Positions 5,818-21,481 of a stretch of 28,509 nt of DNA are shown piece after piece. Source of the DNA: a virus. The stretch lies in IMG/VR virus record IMGVR_UViG_3300047551_000904, positions 1 through 28,509 of that record. One strand, given 5' to 3'. Both the position numbers and the translations under genes were made by a program. A model generated the notes under the pieces. That model did no database searches. It was not told where the DNA came from and saw nothing but the letters and a program-made list of their open reading frames with translations. Position 1 is the first letter of the stretch. Each line of letters starts with the position of its first letter.

Positions 5818-6044
5818 GCGACAAGCAGGACGAAGCTATCAAGTGCGTGGACTGGTCGCCGGTGCCGTGCGCCTATCGCCGGGCGGCGCGGGATCGCGGC
5901 GACTTTGGCTACCTCTGGGGCGTGGGCTGGGTCTGGTGGCGGGCCAAGGACGTGATGACGCCGTGGGAGAAGTGCCCGTGGTGCGACGGCTGGCTCCCGA
6001 CGATGGAGGCGCTCGTGTTGCGGGCGTTGAGCCGTGGCAAGTAA
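5814..6044 (+). CDS. Small Trp/Cys-rich hypothetical protein
   Basis: This 76-residue protein overlaps the metallophosphoesterase stop by ATGA. It is rich in Trp and has one CPWC knuckle near residue 57, plus a Cys near 10 and another near 18, so a metal-bound fold is possible. I recognise no family. The tight coupling suggests co-translation with the upstream gene. Confidence 0.6.
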   Translation: MSDKQDEAIKCVDWSPVPCAYRRAARDRGDFGYLWGVGWVWWRAKDVMTPWEKCPWCDGWLPTMEALVLRALSRGK

Positions 6045-6045
6045 G

Positions 6046-6330
6046 ATGCCGAGTAAGCGTCGGTCCAACCCGTTTACGAACCGCAAGGCGTCGGTGAGCT
6101 TGCACCGCAACGGCTTGTCGATTGAGATCCAAGACGTGGGAGCGACGGACGCCGGGGTGGTGGCGAAGGAGTTGCTAGATATGATGCGGCAACTCACCGC
6201 GGCGGGGTATGACGAGCTCGTGCAGGACGCCGGGGCGTTGCACGGGGGCGGGTTTGAGACGCCGGACGAGGAGGGCATCGAGGACTGGGTGATGCCACCG
6301 GAGGCCAAGCGTCGGCGCATCGGGTTCTAG
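6046..6330 (+). CDS. Hypothetical protein
   Basis: About 94 residues: a basic N-terminus (SKRRSNPFTNRK), a beta-hairpin-like stretch, then an acidic helix around residues 35-65 and a basic C-terminus. I recognise no family. ATG 6046 lies one base after the preceding stop. A GTG at 6034 in the same frame would add four residues and overlap the upstream gene; neither start has a strong Shine-Dalgarno sequence. Confidence 0.6.
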   Translation: MPSKRRSNPFTNRKASVSLHRNGLSIEIQDVGATDAGVVAKELLDMMRQLTAAGYDELVQDAGALHGGGFETPDEEGIEDWVMPPEAKRRRIGF

Positions 6331-6366
6331 GGCTTTACTTTTGGTGGGCGCGGTGTAGGTTATGGC

Positions 6367-6390
6367 TTGCGGTGTCGGGAACCACCGCAA
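6367..6390. repeat. Perfect 8-bp inverted repeat (hairpin or operator)
   Basis: TTGCGGTG (6367-6374) and its exact reverse complement CACCGCAA (6383-6390) are separated by 8 nt. It lies in the 163-nt non-coding gap before the initiator-like gene and could be an operator or an RNA hairpin. Confidence 0.6.
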
Positions 6391-6407
6391 CGAAGTCAAA
6401 ATCGATT

Positions 6408-6475
6408 GGCCCCCGTACTTCTACGCCAAAGCCCCTTGACCGGGTGCGATGGGTTCCCCGTAGAAGGCGGGGGCC
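6408..6475. repeat. Long imperfect inverted repeat / stem-loop upstream of the replication gene
   Basis: GGCCCCCG-TA-CTTCTACG (6408-6425) pairs with CGTAGAAG-G-CGGGGGCC (6459-6475): two 8-bp helices around a small 2x1 internal loop, enclosing a 33-nt loop. Part of that loop, GGTTCCC (6452-6458), can instead pair with GGGAACC (6377-6383) in the upstream hairpin, so two mutually exclusive folds are possible. The stem ends about 18 nt before the ATG at 6494. This may be a leader regulatory RNA, an operator or part of a replication region. Confidence 0.6.
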
Positions 6476-6493
6476 GCTCGTTTAGGTGGCGCG

Positions 6494-7108
6494 ATGCATT
6501 GGATTCGAGTGGCGGTCACGATCGGGGACGATCCCGACATCTACACACTGGCGCATCATCTTGGCATACGGCCCGCTGAAGCGGTCGGCCTCTTGGTGAT
6601 GACGTTGGCAAAGTTTCCGGCCCACGCGCCGGACGGCAACCTCAAAGACATCCCGGACGCCTTGATAGAGCGATGGGCGGGATGGGCTGGCGAGACGGGC
6701 CAGTATGCCGGACTGCTCCGGGCGTTATTCCTCAACGAATCTGGCATCTGGGAATCGTGGGAGCGGCACAACGGCCAACCACTGCGGGAGGCCGAGGCTA
6801 GCCGAGAACGAGCCCGCAAGTACCGTGAGCAGAAACTCAACACCGAGGCTAGTACGGCGAACGGTACGGCGTACGGTACGGCGAACGAACGCGAACGGTT
6901 CGCGTTCGGTACGGGTCTACGAACGAACGTACGAACGAACCAAACTACTAGGGGTGCTACGCACAGGAATGTGGAAAACTACGCACCCGGCTACCTGAAC
7001 CTGACGCCGACGAAGTTCTGCGCCGAATGTGGGGACGGGGTGCTGACTGAGGTCGCGGGGTCGAAGCGTCCGGTCCAGACTCACGCGCCGGAATGTAGCA
7101 ATGCCTAA
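6494..7108 (+). CDS. Phage replication initiator / replisome-organiser-like protein
   Basis: This 204-residue protein has an N-terminal winged-helix-like segment of the type found in phage replisome organisers. It opens HWIRVAVTIGDDPDIYTLAHHLG, continues with a hydrophobic GLLVMTL helix, and contains a W-x-x-W-ERHN segment followed by the basic RERARKYREQK helix at about 95-112. Such proteins bind the origin and recruit helicase or its loader. Residues ~118-150 are low-complexity (TANG/TAYG/TANE, RTNV/RTNQ) because the DNA there is an array of short repeats that may be the origin itself. The C-terminus has CAEC and a later Cys. AGGTGG lies 6 nt before the ATG. No separate helicase or polymerase gene is visible in this window. 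Confidence 0.65.
   Translation: MHWIRVAVTIGDDPDIYTLAHHLGIRPAEAVGLLVMTLAKFPAHAPDGNLKDIPDALIERWAGWAGETGQYAGLLRALFLNESGIWESWERHNGQPLREAEASRERARKYREQKLNTEASTANGTAYGTANERERFAFGTGLRTNVRTNQTTRGATHRNVENYAPGYLNLTPTKFCAECGDGVLTEVAGSKRPVQTHAPECSNA
6853..6941. repeat. Iteron-like direct repeats and 23-bp palindrome, candidate replication origin
   Basis: Three tandem 12-mers of the form TACGGCG(A/T)ACG(G/A) lie at 6853-6864, 6865-6876 and 6877-6888. A perfect palindrome follows at 6886-6908, with 11-bp arms CGAACGCGAAC/GTTCGCGTTCG around one central G. Two more tandem 12-mers TACGAACGAAC(G/C) lie at 6918-6929 and 6930-6941. The array sits inside the initiator-like gene, as the lambda origin sits inside gene O, and is followed by a somewhat AT-richer stretch. 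The repeats are directly visible; the origin function is inferred. Confidence 0.6.
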
Positions 7109-7127
7109 CACTAACCAAGGGAGACCG

Positions 7128-8924
7128 ATGGACCTGACGTATCTGGAACTCTTCGCTGGGGCTGGCGGGATGAGTTTGGGCCTTGAGACCGCGGGTTGGC
7201 GGTGCGTGGCCCACGCCGAGATTGAGCCCCACGCCCGTGCCGTGTTGCGCCATCATTGGCCGGATGTGCCGCTCTATGGCGATGTCGCCGAGTTGGACGG
7301 CACCCAGTTTCGCGGCGTCACGATGGTCACCGGCGGGTCGCCGTGTCAGGACTTGTCTATCGCGGGAAAGCGGGCCGGGATGACCGAAGGATCGGGTACC
7401 CGCTCGTCGCTGTTCTTTGAGCAGGTCCGTATTTGGAACGAATCACAAGCCCCCTACATCCTCTGGGAGAATGTCTATGGAGCCTTCAGCAGCAACGCCG
7501 GACGGGATTTCGCCTCCGTCCTATCAGCCCTCGTGGGAGGAGCCGTCCCTGTTCCCGCGGACGGATGGGTCCGTGCGGGTGTGGTTGCAGGACCGACCGG
7601 AGTCGCCGCGTGGCGGACATTGGACGCTCAATACTTCGGGGTGCCACAGCGCCGCCGCCGTGTCTTTGTCCTCGGTGTTAGAGGCGGAGGGGTTGATCCC
7701 GCCGAAGTACTATCTCTCGCCGAAAGCCTGTCAGGGCATCTTGCGGCGAGCGGAGCGAAGGGGCAAGCAACTCCCTCCGATACTAGAGCAGGCGCTGCGG
7801 TCACGCGCACAGGATTCAGCACCACCGGGTCCGTCGAATACGTCCACGACGTGATGCCAACGCTTCCGCACAAGACGGGATTGGGCTGTGCTGGGGCGCA
7901 GATGGTTGGCGTATTGGAGTCATCGCAGGGTCTCGCAATCAATATCTCCAATGGAGAACCCAGACTTTCCGACGTAATGGGGACACTCCAAGCTCGCGCA
8001 TCGTCAGGTGGTGTGGGAAGCGGGGCACAGATGAACGCCGTGCTTGCGCTTGACATCTACAACCAGAGCGTCAGCCCGAATGGTGTGGCGCACACCATTC
8101 GGGCAATGAACACTGGCGAAGGTATCCCGCATACGATGACCTATGACGCCAGAGACAACGGCGACGGTAGCGTGGTGAACACGATGCGTGGTTTTGCGGT
8201 CAACATCTCCAACGGCGAGCCCCGACTCTCCGACGTGATGGGCACCCTGCAAGCCCGCGCCACGTCAGGCGGCATCGGGAGCGGGGCGCAAATGAACGCC
8301 GTGCTCGCTTTTGCGCAGAACACACGCGACGAGGTGCGCGTCGTTCCGGGTGATAAGATCTGCGCGTTAGCGGCCCAGCCGGGGATGAAGCAAACCAACT
8401 ATGTCCTGACTTATGACGCCCGAGGCAACGGCGAGGGTGTTGGCGACAACACCCTCTCTGGCGACCACCAGAACCGCGTGACGGATTACACCGCCATCGT
8501 CCTCCGCAACCGCGAGGGCAAGCCAGGCGGCGGCAAGGGGCCGCTCCTCTCTGCCGAGCGTCAGCGAACGCTCGGCACGGCAAACGATCAAGTGGTCTTT
8601 ACGCATCAGCAATTCGGTGGGTATAGCGAAGGCAATGATGTCGCGCCGACGATGCAGGCAAGGGATTACAAGGATGCTACCACGCTTGCAATCGGACAGG
8701 TTGGAACCCCTCGACGCCTGACCCCGGTCGAGTGTGAGCGGCTGATGGGCTGGCCCGACCAGCACACCGCCCACGGCATCAGCGAGGCGGGCAAGCCCTA
8801 TGCGCTCGCGGACACCGCCCGCTACAAGCTCTGCGGCAACGGCATCGCCAGCCCGGTCACCGCGTGGATTGGGTTCCAGTTGCGCCACTACTTGACAAGC
8901 GGCAAGCCGTCCCCTAGTCTGTAG
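7128..8924 (+). CDS. C5-cytosine DNA methyltransferase with repeat-containing target-recognition region
   Basis: A 598-residue enzyme transferring a methyl group from S-adenosylmethionine to C5 of cytosine. Motif I is FAGAGGMSLGL (residues 9-19). Motif IV GGSPCQ holds the catalytic Cys73. Motif VI is WENV (Glu114). Motif VIII is QRRRR (175-179). The C-terminal motifs IX/X are LTPVECERLMGWP and YKLCGNGIASPV. Between VIII and IX lies an unusually long insert (~residues 190-520) made of degenerate repeats, including two 38-residue copies at 270-307 and 357-394. Multi-target phage methyltransferases have large variable regions here. ATG 7128 is preferred over 7101 because AAGGGAG lies 4 nt before it. 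No restriction partner is nearby, so this is probably a protective, solitary enzyme. Confidence 0.93.
   Translation: MDLTYLELFAGAGGMSLGLETAGWRCVAHAEIEPHARAVLRHHWPDVPLYGDVAELDGTQFRGVTMVTGGSPCQDLSIAGKRAGMTEGSGTRSSLFFEQVRIWNESQAPYILWENVYGAFSSNAGRDFASVLSALVGGAVPVPADGWVRAGVVAGPTGVAAWRTLDAQYFGVPQRRRRVFVLGVRGGGVDPAEVLSLAESLSGHLAASGAKGQATPSDTRAGAAVTRTGFSTTGSVEYVHDVMPTLPHKTGLGCAGAQMVGVLESSQGLAINISNGEPRLSDVMGTLQARASSGGVGSGAQMNAVLALDIYNQSVSPNGVAHTIRAMNTGEGIPHTMTYDARDNGDGSVVNTMRGFAVNISNGEPRLSDVMGTLQARATSGGIGSGAQMNAVLAFAQNTRDEVRVVPGDKICALAAQPGMKQTNYVLTYDARGNGEGVGDNTLSGDHQNRVTDYTAIVLRNREGKPGGGKGPLLSAERQRTLGTANDQVVFTHQQFGGYSEGNDVAPTMQARDYKDATTLAIGQVGTPRRLTPVECERLMGWPDQHTAHGISEAGKPYALADTARYKLCGNGIASPVTAWIGFQLRHYLTSGKPSPSL
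7935..8309 (+). repeat. Internal duplication in the cytosine methyltransferase gene
   Basis: Two copies of a 114-bp unit (7935-8048 and 8196-8309, spacing 261 bp) encode nearly the same 38 residues, starting A(I/V)NISNGEPRLSDVMGTLQ. They differ mostly at third codon positions, and the first copy is visibly less GC-rich than the second. A smaller YDAR(D/G)NG(D/E)G motif recurs after each copy. Confidence 0.8.
8892..8920 (+). promoter_or_regulatory. Candidate sigma70-type promoter
   Basis: A consensus TTGACA (8892-8897) is followed after 17 nt by TAGTCT (8915-8920), only three of six matches to the -10 consensus. It overlaps the end of the methyltransferase gene and could drive the small genes from 8956 onward. 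Weak on the -10 side. Confidence 0.35.
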
Positions 8925-14437: not shown

Positions 14438-15025
14438 ATGACAACCGCCCGCCACGTCCCCATCGGTGACATCAAGCCGAACCCCAACAACCCGCGCATC
14501 ATCAAGGATGACAAGTTCCGCAAACTGGTAAAGTCCATCAAGGATTTCCCAGAGATGCTGACGTTACGCCCCATCGTGGTCAATAGCGAGATGGTCGTGT
14601 TGGGCGGCAATATGCGCCTTAAAGCCTGTCAAGCGGCGGGGCTATCCGAAGTCCCCGTCATCCTAGCATCCGGATTAACGGATGAACAACAGCGCGAGTT
14701 CATCATCAAGGACAACGTAGGCTTTGGCGAGTGGGAGTGGGAAACGTTGGCAAACGAATGGGACGCCGAGGAACTGGCGGATTGGGGATTAGACTTGCCT
14801 GTAATGGATGAAATCGCGGAAGTTGATTTCGCCAACTTGCCAGATGGCGACAAACCCGACTTTGAGCAAATGACATTTACTTTACATACCTCCCAAGCTG
14901 ATACAATCCGCGAAGCGTTGGAACTTGCAAAGTCTGTGGGGCCGTTTGTGGATATGCCAAATCAAAACAGCAACGGCAATGCCCTTGCCCGCATTGCGGA
15001 GGCAGCACTTGGCGCACTCCGCTAA
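14438..15025 (+). CDS. ParB/sulfiredoxin-fold (ParB-N-like) nuclease-domain protein
   Basis: 195 residues. The N-terminal ~100 residues match the phage ParB/Srx domain: VPIGDIKPNPNNPR start, a hydrophobic RPIVVN strand, the signature VLGGNMRLKACQAAG, and the helix EQQREFIIKDNVGFGEW. In phages this domain is often found beside or fused to DNA-modifying enzymes and can nick DNA or hydrolyse nucleotides; I cannot tell whether this one does. The second half is acidic and Trp-rich. Codon use is visibly less GC-rich than in the flanking genes. The Mom-like gene begins inside its 3' end, indicating coupled translation. Confidence 0.85.
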   Translation: MTTARHVPIGDIKPNPNNPRIIKDDKFRKLVKSIKDFPEMLTLRPIVVNSEMVVLGGNMRLKACQAAGLSEVPVILASGLTDEQQREFIIKDNVGFGEWEWETLANEWDAEELADWGLDLPVMDEIAEVDFANLPDGDKPDFEQMTFTLHTSQADTIREALELAKSVGPFVDMPNQNSNGNALARIAEAALGALR

Positions 15026-15716
15026 AGACATTCGCGTGGCCCCAATAAGTGCCGCCGATGCTCGCGCCATTGTCAAGCGTTACCACTATAGCGGAAAGGT
15101 GGTCAACAACAGCCAGTTGCATCTCGGCGTATTCCTAAATGGGCGTTGTCTCGGCGCGATGTCGTTTGGCCCGTCGCTCGACAAGCGTAAACTTGTCGGC
15201 CTTGTCGCGGGTACGCCGTGGAACGGATTCATCGAATTAAACCGGATGGCGTTTAGCGACGAATTGCCACGCAACAGCGAGTCACGAGCTTTGTCGGTTG
15301 CCTTTAGGATGCTTCGCGCCAACGCCCCGCATTTGCAATGGGTCGTGTCATTTGCAGATGGGACGCAATCGGGGGATGGCGGGATATACCGCGCCAGCGG
15401 GTTTGTGTTGACCGGGATTAAAAAGAATACGCAAGTATGGGCCGCGCCAACAGGTGGACGAGGGAATTGCGAACAACAGCGTGCCGCCGTGGTGTCGCGT
15501 ACATCTGTGACTAAAAGTACGCACATTCTGGATGACGGCGGTGCATCAATGGCAAAGTATGTGGCGGCTGGGTTTGTGCCGTTGAAAGGGTTTCAGCTTC
15601 GCTATGTGTATTTTCTAAATCCTTCCGCACGCGAACGTTTGACGGTTCCAGTTCTCCCATTTTCCCGCATTGCCGAAATGGGCGCGGGGATGTATCGTGG
15701 TAAAGTACGCGCATAA
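15009..15716 (+). CDS. Mom-like DNA adenine modification protein (GNAT-related)
   Basis: The TTG at 15009 is chosen because a perfect GGAGG (14998-15002) lies 6 nt upstream. It gives 235 residues, close to phage Mu Mom. Mu Mom converts adenine in DNA to a methylcarbamoyl form that resists many restriction enzymes. Visible family features are the His26-Tyr27 pair in RYHYSGK, the NRMAF segment with Arg79, SFADG with Asp117, and GGIYRASGF with Tyr127. From memory, the essential Mu residues H48/Y49, R101, D139 and Y149 have the same spacing (a constant offset of 22). Low-GC codons resemble the upstream ParB-like gene, which it overlaps by 17 nt. The stop codon lies in the acceptor stem of a tRNA-like element. 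The modification chemistry here is inferred. Confidence 0.85.
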   Translation: MAHSAKDIRVAPISAADARAIVKRYHYSGKVVNNSQLHLGVFLNGRCLGAMSFGPSLDKRKLVGLVAGTPWNGFIELNRMAFSDELPRNSESRALSVAFRMLRANAPHLQWVVSFADGTQSGDGGIYRASGFVLTGIKKNTQVWAAPTGGRGNCEQQRAAVVSRTSVTKSTHILDDGGASMAKYVAAGFVPLKGFQLRYVYFLNPSARERLTVPVLPFSRIAEMGAGMYRGKVRA

Positions 15717-18787: not shown

Positions 18788-21481
18788 TTGACTGATACCG
18801 AGCGCAAGCCTTTGATCCGGCGCGTGAGCGATGCGCTCCGCGTGTTGGCAGGACGGGAGGGCGGTGAGGCGACCCGCGCCATCATCCCGACGACGTACCC
18901 CAACTTCCCCGGCGGACAGCAGCAGATGGCGCTGGTCCGCACCGCGAACCCCGGCGAGTACCGCTATGACGGCTCGACCATTCGGACGCAGGGGTTCAAC
19001 AAGCATCCCGTTGTCCACGCTTGTATCCGCGTCGTCGCGGACATCGTGGCGTCGGTCCCGCTCGTCGTGTTGCAGGAGCGTGGCAACTACGAGAGCCGCG
19101 TCGGTGAGGACCACCCGCTCCAGAAGCTCCTCGACTATCCCGGCCCGCGCTTCACGGCTCGGCAGTTCCGTGCGCGGTTCGCGGTCGACTTCCTCGGCTA
19201 CGGCAACGCGTTCTTCCAGATCGAGCGGCCCGGCGAGAACCGACTCCCGGTTGGGCTTCGTGCGGTCAACGCCGAGTCGATGCAGCAGGTCTGGATCGAC
19301 CCCGAGGGCGACCCGCGCCGCTACGACTACGCGAACTGGGCGGGCATCATCGTCAACGTGCCGGTCGAGGATATGCTGCACTTCCGCGATCTCGATATGG
19401 GGCGTCCGTTCGAGGCCGAGGTGTTCGGCTATCCCCGTGGGGCGACGGCCATCGGCTCCCTGCTCGCCGACAACGAGGCGACGCAGTACGTCCGGCAGGT
19501 CGTGACCAACGACGGGACGCCGACCTTCGCCGTGCTGATGGCGGACGAGGCGACCACCGAGGATGCCTCCGCGATGCAGGACCGCTACCGCGCTCGCGTG
19601 GTCGATCGCGGCAAGCGTGGCACCCCGGCCTTCTTCGGGGCGGTCAAGGACATCAAGCCGCTGGGCTTCACGCTCTCCGACCTCGAGTTCCCCGACCTCC
19701 GCCGCGTCTCGCGTGAGGACATCTGCGCCGCGTTCGGGGTCGACCCTCGGATGATTGGCATCGCGTCCGCCTCGAGCGATGCGGGGCTGTCGGGCATCCA
19801 GTACGCCGAGGCCCGTGCCCGGCTGGTCCAGCACACGATCGAGCCGATGTTCTCCGCGCTCGAGGACGAGCTCAACCATTGGCTCGCGCCCGAGTTCGGC
19901 GACGTCTGGGTGACCTACGACCACGACAAGCTACGCGACTTGGTCGAGAACGACACCGAGACCTCGACCCGTATCCGCGCCGAGTACGCCGAGGGGCTGC
20001 GGACGTGGGAGGAGAGCCGCACCGCGCTCAAGCTCTCGCCGCTCCCCGAGCCGACCGATAGCATCCTCAAGACCGCTGGGCGCGACCTGATCCCTGCGGC
20101 GCTCGCGGTCATCAACCCCGCCGAGATTCTTGACCAGCCGCCCGCGACGGACAACGAGACGCCCGCGCTTGGTGCGCCGACGCCCGAGATGGACGAGGAG
20201 GCCGAGGTCGAGGACGTCGAGGAGGACGAGGCCGAGGAGCTCGACGAGGAAGAGGAAGCCGAGGACGAGGACGAGGTCGAGGAAGGCCGCGCCGACCCGG
20301 TGACCAACTTCCCTGCCGAGGGCGACGACAAGAAGGTGACGCTTCGGAACTCCCAATGGGCGCTGTTCCCCGTGGGCGAGGCCGAGGACTTGAAGGAGAA
20401 CTGGCCCGAGCTTTGGTCGAAGGCCGGGAACGAGAAGGGCAACGAGCAGTTCCGCAAGCTGGCCCCCATCGCCAAGCGCGGCGGGGTGCCGGAGGGTGAG
20501 GCCGAGGAGAACGCCATCCGGCTGCGCGAGGCGTGGATCGCCCGGCACCGGGGTGACTTCCAACTCAACGGCGTCATCGCGCAGGTCAAGTGGCTGGCCG
20601 TGGGCGATCGCGGGCTCGACCATATGCGGAAGGTCTTGCGCGAGGCGAAGGACAAGCTCGGCGACCGCTCGGAGCCCGAGATGGCCCCGATGGACGAGAC
20701 GATGGCCCGCAAGCGCGGTATCTGGGAGCGGGCGATGCAGGAGCTCGACCGCACCGAGCAGACCTACAAGGCGACCGCCGAGGCGCTGTTCCGTGCCGAG
20801 CGTCCGAAGGTGACCCGCTCTATCGCCTCCGCTGGCGACTTCGCTACGGCGAAGCTCCGCGTCCGCGAGGCGTACCGCACGGGCGGCGAACTCGAGGAGA
20901 ACTGGCGCGAGACCTACACCCCGCTCGTGGCGACCACCTACGCCTTCGGCGCGACCGAGGTGGCGGGCGTCGGGGCCGACCTGAAGGCCGACGTGCAGGA
21001 GTCCGGGCTGACCGGGCGCTCCGTGGCCTCCGTCCGTGAGGCGATCCGTAAGCGGGCCGAGCGGTTGGCGGGGCTCATCGGCGACACTACCGCCCGCGAG
21101 GTCTTGGCGGTCATTGAGGCGTCGGAACGGGCCGGGCTGACGGTCGAGGAGACGTCCCGCCTTGTGGGTCGGGCGGTCTATGGCGAGGAGCGGGTCGATG
21201 CCCGGTCCACGATGATTGCCCGCACGGAGTCCGCTGGGGCGCTCTCGCAGGGCTCGTGGGACCAAGCGCAGGAGATGGGCGACCTCTACCAGAGCAAGGA
21301 GTGGCTCGCCTTCTCGGACGCCGAGACGCGGGAGACGCATACCGCGTGTATGGCGCAGGGCCGCATCGGCATCAACGAGCCGTTCACGAACGGCCTGATG
21401 TACCCGCTCGACCCGACCGGACCAGCGGCCGAGGTCGTGAACTGCCGCTGTGTTTTGGCATATTCTGACGAATCCGTCTAA
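18788..21481 (+). CDS. Portal protein fused to MuF-like minor head protein
   Basis: An 897-residue protein in three parts. Residues ~70-430 are an HK97-type portal (HPVVHACIRVVADIVASVPL, LGYGNAFFQIER, ICAAFGVDPRMIG). The portal ring is the packaging and ejection gate. Residues ~466-500 are an extreme Asp/Glu tract. Residues ~505-640 form a helical domain I do not recognise (NSQWALFPVGEAEDLKENWP, LREAWIARHRGDFQLNGVIA). The C-terminal ~200 residues are Mu gpF-like, ending in the hallmark RTESAGA, KEWLAFSDAETRETH and NCRC. MuF-type proteins enter the capsid as minor components. In most phages the two are separate genes. The TTG start at 18788 has no clear Shine-Dalgarno sequence; start codons slightly downstream (TTG 18810, GTG 18824) are possible. 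Confidence 0.9.
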   Translation: MTDTERKPLIRRVSDALRVLAGREGGEATRAIIPTTYPNFPGGQQQMALVRTANPGEYRYDGSTIRTQGFNKHPVVHACIRVVADIVASVPLVVLQERGNYESRVGEDHPLQKLLDYPGPRFTARQFRARFAVDFLGYGNAFFQIERPGENRLPVGLRAVNAESMQQVWIDPEGDPRRYDYANWAGIIVNVPVEDMLHFRDLDMGRPFEAEVFGYPRGATAIGSLLADNEATQYVRQVVTNDGTPTFAVLMADEATTEDASAMQDRYRARVVDRGKRGTPAFFGAVKDIKPLGFTLSDLEFPDLRRVSREDICAAFGVDPRMIGIASASSDAGLSGIQYAEARARLVQHTIEPMFSALEDELNHWLAPEFGDVWVTYDHDKLRDLVENDTETSTRIRAEYAEGLRTWEESRTALKLSPLPEPTDSILKTAGRDLIPAALAVINPAEILDQPPATDNETPALGAPTPEMDEEAEVEDVEEDEAEELDEEEEAEDEDEVEEGRADPVTNFPAEGDDKKVTLRNSQWALFPVGEAEDLKENWPELWSKAGNEKGNEQFRKLAPIAKRGGVPEGEAEENAIRLREAWIARHRGDFQLNGVIAQVKWLAVGDRGLDHMRKVLREAKDKLGDRSEPEMAPMDETMARKRGIWERAMQELDRTEQTYKATAEALFRAERPKVTRSIASAGDFATAKLRVREAYRTGGELEENWRETYTPLVATTYAFGATEVAGVGADLKADVQESGLTGRSVASVREAIRKRAERLAGLIGDTTAREVLAVIEASERAGLTVEETSRLVGRAVYGEERVDARSTMIARTESAGALSQGSWDQAQEMGDLYQSKEWLAFSDAETRETHTACMAQGRIGINEPFTNGLMYPLDPTGPAAEVVNCRCVLAYSDESV

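Follow-up and report, generated by a model that had tools for sequence, protein, structure and literature searches.

The window, i.e. the whole stretch of 28,509 nucleotides analysed from the virus record IMGVR_UViG_3300047551_000904, harbors a gene for an initiator-like protein with a compact set of DNA repeats inside its coding sequence (Table 1). In profile searches, the N-domain of this protein matches two PHROG families of replication initiation proteins (phrog_9474, E=3.8e-17; phrog_2509, E=1e-9), and the protein is 37-66% identical to its relatives. A Pfam search returned no match of any family and thus no relation to lambda O was detected; likewise, sequence and fold searches of the PDB revealed no solved relative. 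A viral fold library gave primosomal protein 1 and a replisome organizer as fold relatives, and DUF1376 proteins as weaker ones. According to the AlphaFold (AF2) model, a long helix (H89-123) contains a basic segment, and residues 135-173 are disordered (pLDDT<50); the repeat-encoded part falls mostly into this linker. The zinc-ribbon-like C-terminus replaces the DnaT-like domain of some relatives. This domain (PF17948) is present in P0002 and L023 and absent from the window protein, L009, L010 and L011, and since only some YdaU-like members carry it, it is not defining for the family. Based on its N-domain profile and on the iterons and tandem array in its linker, the window protein is assigned to the YdaU-like phage initiators.

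Table 1. Features of the initiator-like gene and its repeats (nucleotide positions of the window unless given as aa).
Feature	Position	Strand	Basis
Initiator-like gene, 204 aa, phrog_9474/phrog_2509, predicted YdaU-like phage replication initiator	6494..7108	+	profile match, AF2 model
N-domain of the initiator-like protein	aa 1-94		
Basic part of long helix, aa 95-112, QPLREAEASRERARKYRE, proposed iteron-recognition segment	6776..6829	+	model helix, covariation in relatives
Iteron 1, GCGAACGGTACG	6857..6868	+	
Iteron 2, GCGTACGGTACG, holds perfect 11-bp palindrome CGTAC-G-GTACG	6869..6880	+	
Degenerate iteron 3, GCGAACGAACGC	6881..6892	+	
Perfect 23-bp palindrome, CGAACGCGAACGGTTCGCGTTCG, contains iteron 4	6886..6908		
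Iteron 4, GCGAACGGTTCG, at palindrome centre	6891..6902	+	
Iteron 5, GCGTTCGGTACG	6902..6913	+	
(ACGA)n 4-nt tandem array, TACGAACGAACGTACGAACGAAC	6918..6940	+	
Mildly AT-richer stretch, 52% GC, 3rd percentile of window; candidate opening region	6914..6973		
TTTTCCACA, sole DnaA-box match (TTWTNCACA) in 28.5 kb	6970..6978	-	
Short C-terminal zinc-ribbon-like segment CAEC...H...C, without database match	7019..7099	+	

All repeats are held by codons 120-149 of the gene (6851-6940). The sequence GCGWWCGGTWCG occurs exactly at 6857, 6869, 6891 and 6902 and has no other match in the 28.5 kb, while three 12-mers (GTACGGCGAACG/GTACGGCGTACG/GTACGGCGAACG) stand in tandem at 6852-6887. Including the degenerate copy at 6881, the iterons follow each other at 12, 12, 10 and 11 bp; all have the same-strand orientation, and in most copies 11 bp form a palindrome that is perfect or nearly so. 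The original prediction described five 12-bp iterons in two clusters flanking a perfect 23-bp palindrome. The repeats and their position are real, and the palindrome exists as described, in frame inside the gene. However, there are four exact iterons and a degenerate one, and the second cluster is a 4-nt tandem in which TACGAACGAACG is present twice. The upstream cluster and the palindrome together make more sense as a series of iterons on one strand, each an imperfect palindrome, and the downstream array is a different element. An overlapping ORF in another frame of the + strand (6705-6998) reads the same repeats as VRRTVRRTVRRT...ERTYERT.

The palindrome is an extension of one iteron. By itself it is not special, since a longer perfect palindrome with 14-bp arms and a 3-nt centre is located at 8074-8104 in the C5-methyltransferase gene. 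As a perfect 23-bp inverted repeat it might be taken for a transcription terminator, an attenuator or a recombination site, but this is scarcely credible: no terminator-like site was found in 6000-7400, the palindrome overlaps an iteron, and L004, L009 and L011 have other iterons and do not keep the palindrome as such. Two further inverted repeats were noticed along with the longer palindrome, at 8433 and 8552. The C5-cytosine methyltransferase gene (7101-8924) also has a variable region with a duplicated segment, NISNGEPRLSDVMGTLQARA.SGG.GSGAQMNAVLA. A Mom-family DNA modification gene (14925-15716; PF25680, E=5e-53) directly follows a ParB-like gene, and with two further DNA methyltransferase genes it characterizes a phage rich in DNA modification.

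The repeat block was recoded synonymously with the window's own codon usage. The observed self-similarity score of 83 was reached by none of 5000 recodings (maximum 43), which excludes chance, and a palindrome arm of at least 11 arose in five of the 5000. Among the 25 CDSs of the window, solely the initiator-like gene passed the shuffle test. An equally repetitive acidic stretch in the fused portal/head-morphogenesis ORF (20191-20285, with the repeat at 20194) served as a protein-driven control and failed it (p=0.28); this repetitive head-protein stretch is explained as a product of protein composition. Furthermore, the comparison with the closest relative, L003 (95% aa), in which the block is nearly intact, yielded 2/89 differences inside the block versus 50/523 outside (Fisher p=0.022). 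Selection at the protein level for a low-complexity, charged and disordered tether, with the DNA repeats following from repeated codons, would agree with the predicted disorder of the linker and with the charged linkers of many relatives (RREEK, EEEE). Nevertheless, it is a very improbable explanation, as synonymous recodings never match the DNA repetition, the repeats have periods of 4 and 5 nt, neither divisible by 3, one DNA junction is used in all three frames, and the palindromes and phased inverted boxes are left unexplained. The suggestion that selection acts on DNA rather than on protein is thus supported by the synonymous tests, the three-frame junction and the low divergence from the closest relative. 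If the element is an origin, the disordered linker (aa 135-173) would largely be a side effect of writing it into the gene.

The relatives of the initiator span Pseudomonas, enterobacteria, Planctomycetes and Akkermansia (prophages), with E. coli Rac-442/2 YdaU, epsilon15, Xanthomonas Olaya, Pseudomonas PAN70, Vibrio 1.211 and Cobetia Carin1 as distant members. Among 124 non-redundant members, 88% have their most self-similar 90 nt beginning at aa 90-145; in a first set of 21 members, the maximum lay in the linker in 20 cases and p<=0.003 was obtained in 14. The layout of the family comprises lineage-specific iterons followed mostly by a 4-6-nt tandem, typically (AGAAG)n, and tandem units seen across members are AGAAG, GAGAC, ACGG, ACGA and others. 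Positional counterparts of the (ACGA)n array of the window are (ACGG)n, (GAGAC)n and (AGAAG)n; all four are stop-free in all forward frames and therefore the origin may be able to sit in any reading frame. L004, L009 and L011 (53-63% identical where compared) carry different iterons in the same place, namely GCGACCGTCGC and then (ACGG)n in L004, GTACGC-type iterons and then (ACGG)n in L009, and GTACCCGGTAC and then (GAGAC)n in L011. L031 (59% aa identity) has GGCGAACGGTACG in common with the window, twice in 44 kb and both times in the linker. The extreme is L033 (1880-2060), where 13 GGGACA boxes are located in the linker, many of them forming GGGACATGTCCC palindromes, and are followed by (CGTAGA)n. 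Regarding the reach of the searches, a genome scan with the GC-rich N-domain alignment gave no matches, a DUF1376 scan gave near-identical enterobacterial copies only, and a scan of viral contigs with a 20-nt iteron pattern gave a known relative and two chance matches in unrelated coding sequences.

GTAACG boxes in 103 members are spaced by 11 (23 cases), 12 (53) or 23 bp (15) on the same strand and by 13 (52 cases) or 24 bp (45) when convergent. The sequence AGAAGAGAAGAGA is found on the coding strand in 49 of the 124 genes, on the other strand never, and not once in 593 kb of flanks with both strands counted. The last box often abuts the tandem directly, and the junction ACC/AGAGAAGAGA lies in codon frame 0, 1 or 2 in 7, 1 and 11 members, respectively. 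Conservation of the same DNA junction in three frames rules out protein selection as its cause, and since the layout recurs in a large family of phages, often with other letters and even other frames, it is the DNA and not the protein that is kept. Thus, when repeats and protein are compared in relatives, as had been proposed, the repeats stay in place while their sequence, the protein linker and the codon frame vary. Relatives that retain the gene and lack the repeats, named beforehand as evidence against an origin, were encountered in a weak form: L005 shows no significant repeats, and degenerate tandems occur in a number of Pseudomonas members. Short tandem repeats grow by slippage and some members are degenerate, so the element could in principle be a functionless product of neutral slippage or gene conversion, tolerated in an unconstrained linker. 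This is highly unlikely in view of the same place in most of the 124 relatives, the fixed order of iterons and tandem with its fixed junction, the quantised spacing (11/12/23; 13/24), the exceptionless coding-strand polarity and a divergence below that of the flanks.

The palindromic sites beside a gene for a DNA-binding protein also bring to mind an autoregulatory operator, on which the initiator or a repressor would control its own transcription and not replication; binding of the initiator could even serve both roles. The sites are situated about 360 bp into the coding sequence, neither sigma-70-like promoters nor terminators were found in 6000-7400, and the tandem and AT-richer elements would be unexplained, which makes an operator function quite unlikely.

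The slightly AT-richer stretch noted after the repeats is present but mild, with 52% GC in 6914-6973 against 65.5% in the genome, and a tandem array is found there instead of an A/T tract. The DnaA-box match has a counterpart in the L009 contig (34.8 kb), which also contains a single match, at the equivalent place on the opposite strand (TTATCCACA). As DnaA boxes show no family-wide enrichment (4/22), the match is suggestive only. A GC-skew inflection at the site, proposed as a check, was not found in the window. Skew speaks for the site in three of four complete relatives, where the cumulative minimum falls within 0.5-1.1 kb of the element, with a nearby switch in gene direction as a confounder; VW-6S, a complete relative, is without skew inflection, and the epsilon15 record contains no annotated origin feature. 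A recognised helicase or loader gene is absent from the window, itself a fragment, and DnaB-type and DnaC/IstB-type genes were not found in most contigs of the GC-rich relatives, which are possibly fragments as well. Searches of the relatives for DnaB and IstB/DnaC gave a sole DnaB, adjoining the initiator in the L011 contig. Genes for a DnaB-type replicative helicase were observed immediately 5' of the initiator in the L011 contig (16333-17046) and in L005 (2292-3998), unlike in the window group.

Within the family, the type of box varies with a basic segment that immediately follows the conserved HNG motif. TAKRVAxHK-like segments go with GTAACG boxes, ERKRxxRK-like with GTCCGC, RKxKQR-like with GTCACG and RQxxWRA-like with GTAGAC boxes. 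For 18 members picked by eye, with related sequences treated as independent, box type is associated with the helix when partialled on the N-core (p=0.0002), and the reverse is weak (p=0.06). L016 and L025 have identical last 100 residues, N-cores that are 35% identical and different boxes. This chimera pair shows that iterons move with the N-domain, and such pairs point to exchange on the element's 3' side, possibly as a consequence of its position. In E. coli K-12, ydaU of the Rac prophage combines a DUF1376 N-domain with a C-terminus resembling Rac-442/2 YdaU, and the same linker contains its own TGTTCAAACA/TGTTTGAACA iterons (p=0.003). For the Rac prophage as a whole, an active origin named oriJ is on record (PMC3945230). 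A wider proposal is a frame-independent origin cassette of about 200 bp, consisting of recognition helix, matching iterons and a strand-polar, short-period tandem, that is exchanged as a unit between phages; its tandem would be a single-strand docking or opening element that works GC-rich, in replacement of an AT-rich unwinding element. We offer this tentatively, as a possibility somewhat short of an even chance.

The origin of phage lambda is located in gene O, where four inverted-repeat iterons of 18 bp precede an AT-rich tract of 38 bp, and lambda O binds single-stranded DNA too (PMC7466680, PMC3349717). The lambda tract reads ACAAAAGAAAAAAGAAAAGATTATT and is purine-rich on the coding strand, as is (AGAAG)nATATA of the family. 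Lambda and Stx origins resemble the element described here in that the initiator gene contains, near its middle, several iterons of imperfect palindromic symmetry, then an asymmetric purine-rich tract on the same side, and in a variable number of iterons that lengthens the protein. The lambda-like arrangement seen in the original prediction is supported, with several dyad-symmetric iterons inside an initiator gene in the order of ori-lambda. In contrast to lambda, with its 18-bp iterons spaced by 20-24 bp, the window has iterons of 11-12 bp that are spaced by 10-12 bp, the tandem is GC-rich with a 4-nt unit instead of an AT-rich tract, and a P-like gene was not recognised. The YdaU-like initiators (PHROG 9474/2509; Rac YdaU, epsilon15) share the homologous N-domain, the linker position and the order of iterons and tandem; differences are the zinc-ribbon-like C-terminus of the window protein versus a DnaT-like domain and (ACGA)n versus (AGAAG)n.

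In B. subtilis oriC, the strand-specific signals for DnaA and for DnaD reside in an array of short period, and where the region is opened DnaD binds to one of the strands (PMC10201434). Bacterial oriC (DnaA box with DnaA-trio, DnaD element) is similar in that duplex boxes stand at a fixed distance from a short-period, strand-asymmetric array, and differs in its initiator and in a period of 3 nt compared with 4-6 nt in the phage arrays. A DnaA-trio repeat beside DnaA boxes was not found in the window, where the array has period 4 and the single DnaA box lies 30 bp downstream. The likeness to oriC is a resemblance by analogy and not membership. A possible DnaD TnnT motif was dropped because the complement of (ACGG)n is without the motif.

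Taken together, the repeats are very probably the replication origin of this phage, lambda-like, placed inside the gene of its own initiator and bound by that initiator; the PHROG match, the family-wide layout and the likeness to ori-lambda support the candidate origin. Its anatomy, the conservation at the DNA level in the family and the covariation of iterons and helix are documented in sequences; the following course of binding, opening, helicase loading and DnaA action is inferred. Dimers of the N-domain would bind the semi-palindromic iterons of 11-12 bp (6857-6913), which lie about one helical turn apart, through the basic helix at the domain end and would form an O-some-like array. Strain and supercoiling would then open the adjoining tandem array and AT-richer stretch (6918-6978), where one exposed strand may be held by the initiator and/or used for helicase loading. 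Host DnaA would perhaps assist through the single box at 6970.

The principle of an origin within an initiator gene is already known. What looks new is a composite element that is independent of frame, together with the covarying cassette of helix and iterons and a tandem in GC-rich form; no description of the composite element was found in a literature search that covered a minority of the subscription journals. If true, the finding would provide a sequence rule for locating origins in many phages and prophages that are for the most part uncharacterised and range from E. coli Rac to Planctomycetes and Akkermansia. Such an element would be a clean case of coding sequence that carries a DNA function whatever the frame, and it raises the question of how an origin is opened whose tandem element is GC-rich. 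In addition, the natural helix/iteron pairs would offer a means to decode the recognition between initiator and origin.
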